A stretch of DNA of 64,000 bases from Wenzhouxiangella marina (GTDB taxonomy: Bacteria > Pseudomonadota > Gammaproteobacteria > Xanthomonadales > Wenzhouxiangellaceae), in NCBI RefSeq assembly GCF_001187785.1, contig NZ_CP012154.1, positions 1 through 64,000 on the forward strand, in the 5' to 3' direction. Below, piece by piece: positions 38,619 to 39,147 of this stretch. Both the position numbers and the translations under genes were made by a program. Each line of letters opens with the position of its first letter. Position 1 is the stretch's first letter. The notes under the pieces were generated by a model, which ran no database searches, had not been told where the DNA came from, and worked only from the letters and a program-made list of their open reading frames with translations.

Positions 38619-38634
38619 AGCAACTCCCGTGCCA
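38619..38634 (-). promoter_or_regulatory. Sigma-54 promoter of glnK-amtB
   Basis: On the minus strand TGGCACGGGAGTTGCT matches the sigma-54 consensus TGGCACG-N4-TTGCT at every defined base. The -12 GC is near 38621 and the predicted start site near 38609, about 34 nt before the glnK ATG. NtrC enhancer sites should lie further upstream, but a MITE begins 22 bp from the -24 element. Confidence 0.93.
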
Positions 38635-38655
38635 GATCGATTCGATCCTGGCTAG

Positions 38656-39009
38656 GGAACCTCTGAATAACTCTGCGCGGGCGCGAAGGCGTCTTTGCGG
38701 GCTCAGCAGGCGTGGCTTCGGCGAGCGCCGTTTCGTGCCAGGTGCGGTTTGCCCAAGGCAAGAAGCGCCTGGTGACGAAACGATCAGCGCGTGTGGTTTG
38801 GTCACTCCAAATGAGCGAGTCGAAACACGTCGGAAGGCCCGCAAAGGCCCTTCCCATCTGGCGATTGTGATGACAAGCTGCCGGAAAAGCCGCACCTCGC
38901 GCGTCGCGCCACTCGGCCGTAGCTACGGCTACTGTCACTCGCGTCGCACCACACGATCTGCGGCTTTTCCGACCGAAACGCGCTCCGTGCAGAGTTATTC
39001 AGAGGTTCC
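38656..39009. mobile_element. MITE-like element with 25-bp inverted repeats, abutting the glnK promoter
   Basis: Including CTAG at both outer ends, perfect 25-bp inverted repeats at 38652-38676 and 38989-39013 flank a 354-bp core whose ends start GGAACCTCTGAATAACTCTG. The outer CTAG (38652-38655 and 39010-39013) would be a 4-bp YTAR-type target duplication as made by IS5-group transposases; CTAG being palindromic, it could instead be part of the repeat. No transposase is encoded; the open frames across it are not family-like. It is a non-autonomous element mobilised, if at all, in trans. Confidence 0.8.
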
Positions 39010-39147
39010 CTAGGGCCCGTCGGGCTGGGCCCGGGCGGAATCCGCGAATGGATCAGCGACGGTGGGAAGTGCATGGAATTCGAGCAATCCGGGGCGATCC
39101 TGCTCAAGGCTTCAGCAGGTCGAAGCGCCCTGGCCCGGAATCGGGCA

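Follow-up and report, generated by a model that had tools for sequence, protein, structure and literature searches.

How is nitrogen control of an operon affected when a transposable element settles directly behind its sigma-54 promoter? The question is raised by the glnK-amtB locus of Wenzhouxiangella marina, which is located in the window, the 64-kb stretch of DNA analysed here. The window forms the first part of a 3.68-Mb genome represented by a single contig. On the minus strand, the locus is composed of a hydrolase-like gene, a terminator-like hairpin, the regulatory region, glnK, and amtB (Table 1). The hairpin is probably the terminator of the upstream gene and forms the outer bound of the glnK-amtB regulatory region. 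Among the matches listed from the named collection (80 loci), AmtB has the highest identity, 76%, to its homolog from Wenzhouxiangella sediminis. No Rfam family reaches its gathering score in the 64-kb window.

Table 1 Features of the glnK-amtB locus, with positions in the window.
Feature	Position	Strand	Evidence
amtB, ammonium transporter (marine subtype)	36965..38218	-	TIGR03644, 653.8 bits (cut-off 514); TIGR00836, 354 bits (cut-off 343.3)
glnK, P-II regulator	38237..38575	-	NF007946, 185.2 bits (cut-off 181)
Sigma-54 promoter TGGCACGGGAGTTGCT	38619..38634	-	Perfect match, without a second one in the window
CTAG target duplication, glnK-proximal copy	38652..38655	.	Arm alignment and copy comparison
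354-bp IS5-type MITE with 25-bp terminal inverted repeats (38656-38680 / 38985-39009)	38656..39009	.	Copy comparison
66-bp hairpin inserted into the MITE	38727..38792	.	Shared by 6 of the 14 own copies at the same position; the other 8 lack it
CTAG target duplication, distal copy	39010..39013	.	Arm alignment and copy comparison
Displaced NtrC-like site 1, TGCATGGAATTCGAGCA	39070..39086	.	Rank 1 of 63984, 18.0 bits
Displaced NtrC-like site 2, TGCTCAAGGCTTCAGCA	39101..39117	.	Rank 6, 9.8 bits
Weaker candidate NtrC-like site 3, TGGCCCGGAATCGGGCA	39131..39147	.	Rank 17, 7.1 bits
Terminator-like hairpin	39154..39181	-	1 found, 0.6 expected in shuffles
Upstream gene, 915-aa ORF, probably prolyl-oligopeptidase-like hydrolase	39205..41952	-	No NCBIfam match reaches its cut-off; dipeptidyl-peptidase Dpp5, for example, scores 86.1 bits (cut-off 900)

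Promoter and inserted element

The pattern TGGCACG-N4-TTGC occurs without mismatch once in the window, on the minus strand at 38620-38634, and the next T extends the span to 38619. The site is separated from the ATG of glnK (38575) by 43 bases, counted with T 38619 as part of the promoter. Sites with up to two mismatches are not enriched in the window (17 found, 25.8 expected), so the evidence for the promoter consists of the perfect match and its location. The promoter has the features of an NtrC-activated sigma-54 promoter, as the -24/-12 consensus is accompanied by upstream NtrC-like sites, recognised by their sequence, and by ntrC and rpoN genes elsewhere in the genome. RpoN scores 438.3 bits (cut-off 277.35), and NtrC, which retains the GAFTGA loop motif, scores 598.7 bits, above its family cut-off of 558.6.

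The element upstream of the promoter is short and non-coding, ends in terminal inverted repeats, and is flanked on both sides by CTAG. Its borders were set by comparing the 14 copies from the same genome. The inverted arms at 38652-38680 and 38985-39013, each 29 nt long and 97% complementary, are composed of the CTAG duplication and the 25-bp repeats, which carry one mismatch. Each ORF of at least 60 amino acids that overlaps the element crosses one of its borders. We classify the element as a MITE, and not as an autonomous IS5-group insertion sequence, because no transposase is present inside it. The sequence-only reading had described a perfect sigma-54 site at 38619-38634 and a MITE with 25-bp inverted repeats beginning 22 bp from the -24 box. 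The site is confirmed as the sole perfect match, and the complementary arms, the target duplication, and the 14 two-ended copies agree with the assignment of the element; the distance comes to 21 intervening bases, CTAG included.

Putative NtrC sites beyond the element

An amtB match is present in 19 of the 30 genomes of the genus, the source genome included. The comparison covers 19 loci (L032-L050) of 18 genomes other than the source; L048 and L050 represent one place. The loci cover at most 1.5 kb on each side of amtB, and some are shortened by contig ends. In the relatives' promoters, TGC-N11-GCA-like sites are located upstream of the sigma-54 box. Relative to the -24 T, they form pairs at -84/-62 in L037, L038, L040, and L041, and at about -104/-73 in L032, L033, L035, L036, L039, and L048, while glnA of the source genome has a pair at -83/-61. 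A sigma-54 site at L042:200 is preceded by NtrC-like sites at 86 and 118. The remaining relatives have mostly single sites, and several lack glnK before amtB.

We built an NtrC matrix from 27 sites in the relatives' promoters and in the source genome's own glnA, with glnK of the window excluded. The training sites were selected for their match to the pattern close to a sigma-54 box and for their position. Additional matches in these loci, outside the pair positions, were omitted (for example L033 -180; L035 -192, -160; L036 -123, -246; L039 -181, -224; L048 -137, -213), and L032 and L036 contribute identical sites. The matrix is therefore blind to the glnK promoter of the window, yet not free of assumptions. 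When each locus in turn was left out, the top site over 3.0-4.4 kb fell at -160..-40 in 14 of 15 loci; L046 is the locus that failed, and L042, L047, L048/L050, and L049 are outside the 15. A simpler motif, TGCNC-N7-GNGCA, was rejected as too loose, with 81 places in the whole genome versus 50 for the control.

Three NtrC-like sites, spaced by 31 and 30 bp, are located directly behind the element. Site 1 scores 18.0 bits, whereas the next best site in the window reaches 11.0; the training sites score 9.4-22.4 bits under their own matrix. Site 2 scores about as high as the weakest training sites and site 3 lower than all of them, which counts against the proposed enhancer. None of 4000 Markov-simulated 137-mers reaches the observed best score, and none reaches the second. 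Among 6387 overlapping 137-bp stretches of the window, with the region itself skipped, 48 contain a site scoring 9.7 bits or higher and one also contains a second site of 7.0 or higher. Of the 13 occurrences of TGC-N11-GCA in the window, a pattern independent of the matrix, no two start within 45 bp of one another except those at 39070 and 39101.

Measured from the -24 T, the site centres are now 444, 475, and 505 bp upstream. With the MITE removed, they would be at 86, 117, and 147 bp, and the shift caused by the insertion is thus 358 bp. The MITE-free positions are in a range like that of the relatives' promoters, and the pair would be about 13 bp farther out than relatives' pairs of equal spacing, which counts against the enhancer reading. 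It is quite improbable that the sites are chance matches, with the true enhancer lost or NtrC acting from elsewhere. The weakness of sites 2 and 3 and the comparable stretches elsewhere in the window would fit chance, but site 1 exceeds its nearest competitor by 7 bits and is matched in none of the simulations, and both the position and the interval between the sites, about three helical turns, agree with the relatives. We infer from these comparisons that NtrC probably binds the putative sites at 39070, 39101, and 39131.

No NtrC-like site starts inside the MITE, where the best 17-mer scores 4.5 bits. The earlier statement that no clear NtrC site is present inside or beyond the element holds for the inside and fails for the region beyond, which contains the sites ranked first, sixth, and 17th in the window. 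The displacement of enhancers by about 350 bp, proposed in the same reading, agrees with the shift of 358 bp. Its alternatives, replacement of the enhancer and use of sites internal to the element, are unsupported, as NtrC-like sites are still recognisable beyond the MITE and none of note is found within it.

Nitrogen control across the insertion

We propose, with a probability of about 70%, that the MITE inserted between the sigma-54 promoter and an NtrC enhancer, the sites of which stayed recognisable while being moved by 358 bp, and that NtrC likely still activates the operon by looping. The IS5-type element would have entered a CTAG within the glnK-amtB regulatory region and spared the promoter. 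Phosphorylated NtrC at the displaced sites would most likely reach the sigma-54 polymerase by looping of the intervening DNA. Activation of glnK-amtB would then probably survive the insertion and the operon stay nitrogen-controlled, perhaps more weakly, with an output that may be lower or more dependent on supercoiling. According to a review, NtrC sites must be at least 70 bp from the glnA promoter, distances of up to 1000 bp or longer cause no noticeable loss, and activation is less efficient but still seen at 6000 bp (PMC7408454). Given this tolerance, we expect NtrC to bridge the longer loop as well.

The same partial source describes a two-site NtrC promoter of another organism that depends on helical phase (PMC7408454). 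The 358-bp shift corresponds to 34.1 turns at 10.5 bp per turn, which is near in phase, and to 34.26 turns at 10.45 bp. We rejected an in-phase insertion as a sign of selection, since the value varies with the assumed pitch and could easily be due to chance.

It is possible, although unlikely, that the insertion uncoupled the operon. An enhancer about 450 bp away, perhaps deprived of help from IHF, would work poorly and leave glnK-amtB weakly expressed. A perfect IHF consensus is located 13-23 bp upstream of the -24 T in seven of 16 relatives (L033, L035, L037-L041), and the glnK promoter of the window has none within 560 bp of the -24 box on the upstream side. The source genome's own glnA also lacks it, and glnA of Xylella has putative NtrC and IHF sites in the part of the report available (PMC3224663). 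Uncoupling would also be consistent with the lack of NtrC-like sites inside the element and of a sigma-70-like promoter at 38570-39210. The promoter is nevertheless perfect, site 1 scores like the sites of relatives, the shift is close to being in phase, though possibly by chance, and the distance tolerated at glnA, as given in the accessible text of PMC7408454, exceeds the one considered here.

A takeover of the operon by the MITE, which would supply its own promoter or regulatory site and rewire the operon, is highly improbable. Such an outcome has a parallel in Caulobacter, where IS3-family insertions in the glnBA promoter restore transcription without NtrC, as described in the part of PMC10274813 available. 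In the window, however, the scan of 38570-39210, which covered sigma-70-like promoters only, found none, the MITE contains no NtrC-like site, and the consensus sigma-54 box is intact downstream of it. The rewired nitrogen control put forward in the sequence-only reading is thus unsupported, the putative enhancer having been displaced and not replaced.

Least probable of all is that the MITE is tolerated since its own structure keeps the enhancer working by shortening the effective distance to the promoter. The MITE strand folds far better than shuffled sequences (DNA fold z = -7.8, 0 of 100 shuffles), and therefore extrusion driven by supercoiling, or a protein joining the MITE ends, could bring enhancer and promoter closer. 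Nitrogen control of glnK-amtB would in that case depend on DNA topology.

The preferred reading, activation across a longer loop, relies on parts and a mechanism that are already known. The arrangement, a sigma-54 promoter preceded by putative paired NtrC sites, resembles that of Escherichia coli glnA (glnAp2), where the distances of the pair to the start site, about 90 and 140 bp, are in a range similar to the MITE-free positions in the window (PMC7408454). In contrast to glnA, the window has a MITE in between and its putative enhancer about 450-500 bp away. Synthetic NtrC enhancers likewise combine an NtrC tandem, a loop of variable length, and a sigma-54 promoter; as far as the available text goes, those are engineered, whereas the present case is natural (PMC4740811). 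Among the matches listed from the open-licence literature, we found no paper describing a MITE that separates an NtrC enhancer from its sigma-54 promoter. The nearest precedent found is the IS3-family insertion in Caulobacter PglnBA, where a mobile element likewise entered a nitrogen-assimilation promoter controlled by NtrC (PMC10274813). There, the insertion sequences provide NtrC-independent transcription in laboratory suppressors, while the window has a natural allele in which a MITE with no detected promoter is positioned between enhancer and promoter.

NtrC enhancers have previously been moved artificially, and transposition seems to have done so here naturally, in a core nitrogen operon. 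The case illustrates how a MITE may lengthen a regulatory loop without breaking the sequence of the enhancer, its spacing, or the promoter. It offers a natural experiment on whether, in its native chromosome, an NtrC enhancer can accommodate a few hundred base pairs more.

Copies, kinship, and targets of the element

The 14 copies of the element with both ends are dispersed in the source genome, where the end motif GGRRCCTCTGAAYAA occurs 29 times, versus 0 for a reversed-pattern control. IS5-group elements are defined by a 4-bp YTAR target duplication. The duplications of the own copies are identical in 11 of 14 (9 CTAG, 1 TTAG, 1 CAAG) and unequal in three, and are both identical and YTAR in ten. 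Forty copies in other genomes, picked from the listed matches within the family, have identical duplications in 19 cases (17 YTAR, 2 other) and unequal ones in 21. Within the genus, 23 of 30 genomes have matches at E 0.001 or better, and within the family 33 of 43 do, with the source genome counted; some of these matches are partial and weak, and the numbers therefore do not represent complete elements. The plasmid and phage collections contain no match at E 1e-5.

A sister genome, G001, contains a 1160-bp element (L173:1287-2446) with an IS5 family transposase (NF033581, 345 bits, cut-off 140). Over 18 bp, the ends of the window MITE are 88.9% identical to those of this element and 94.4% identical to those of 1157-bp copies in G024. 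The 4-bp YTAR duplications and the GGRRCCTCTGAAYAA ends, near-identical to those of the sister transposase elements, are shared with IS5-family (IS5-group) elements and the MITEs driven by them. Unlike the IS5-family elements, the window MITE lacks a transposase, and its likeness to the G001 and G024 elements is confined to the terminal 15-18 bp; its true parent element was not found among them. The MITE may now be immobile in its own genome, as judged by two transposase families, because no PF05598 or PF01609 match was found in the whole genome (9 and 3 candidates scored).

Eight of the 14 own copies (L003, L005, L006, L008, L009, L010, L012, L014) adjoin a gene whose TAG stop is located in the duplication. 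The stop belongs to the target, and its codon is therefore preserved upon insertion. Five of the ten other CTAG sites in the window are also at gene stop codons, and nine of the 40 picked copies in other genomes adjoin a stop. A preference of the MITE for gene ends was rejected, as the availability of CTAG suffices; in view of the similar proportions for the own copies and for those ten CTAG sites, it is apparently CTAG, and not the promoter, that determines the target.

The 66-bp hairpin unit GCCGTTTCG...CAGCGCGT is present in the window MITE and in copies L002, L003, L006, L007, L008, and L012. A diverged version, in either orientation, occupies a second site of the MITE in four of 14 own copies. 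In the alignment of the copies, each of these insertions follows AGC and has no visible target duplication. Short hairpins related to the unit are present elsewhere in the genome. The unit has the appearance of a second mobile palindrome, REP- or IS200-like. A lone end-like motif, GGAACTTCTGAACAA, with two mismatches, is located at 49992-50006 of the window, and exact end motifs without a partner are found at C1:1040167, 2362342, and 2493458; they are possible remnants of elements. At L010 1415-1436, a second, diverged MITE end is positioned head to head with the left end of the copy, at the same CTAG.

None of the 19 relatives' loci has the element at the place it occupies in the window, and there is accordingly no distant relative among them with internal NtrC sites in such an element, an observation that would have contradicted the proposed effect of the insertion. 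No close sister with an empty insertion site was found, the nearest AmtB being 78% identical. Paired element ends, with up to two mismatches, are present in L038 (G002) only. There, a copy of the MITE family at 1212-1486 is located between glnK and amtB, directly after the TAG that ends glnK, and is flanked by the unequal duplication TTAG/CTGG. The insertion is independent of that in the window, and the operon mRNA could fold into a hairpin at this MITE.
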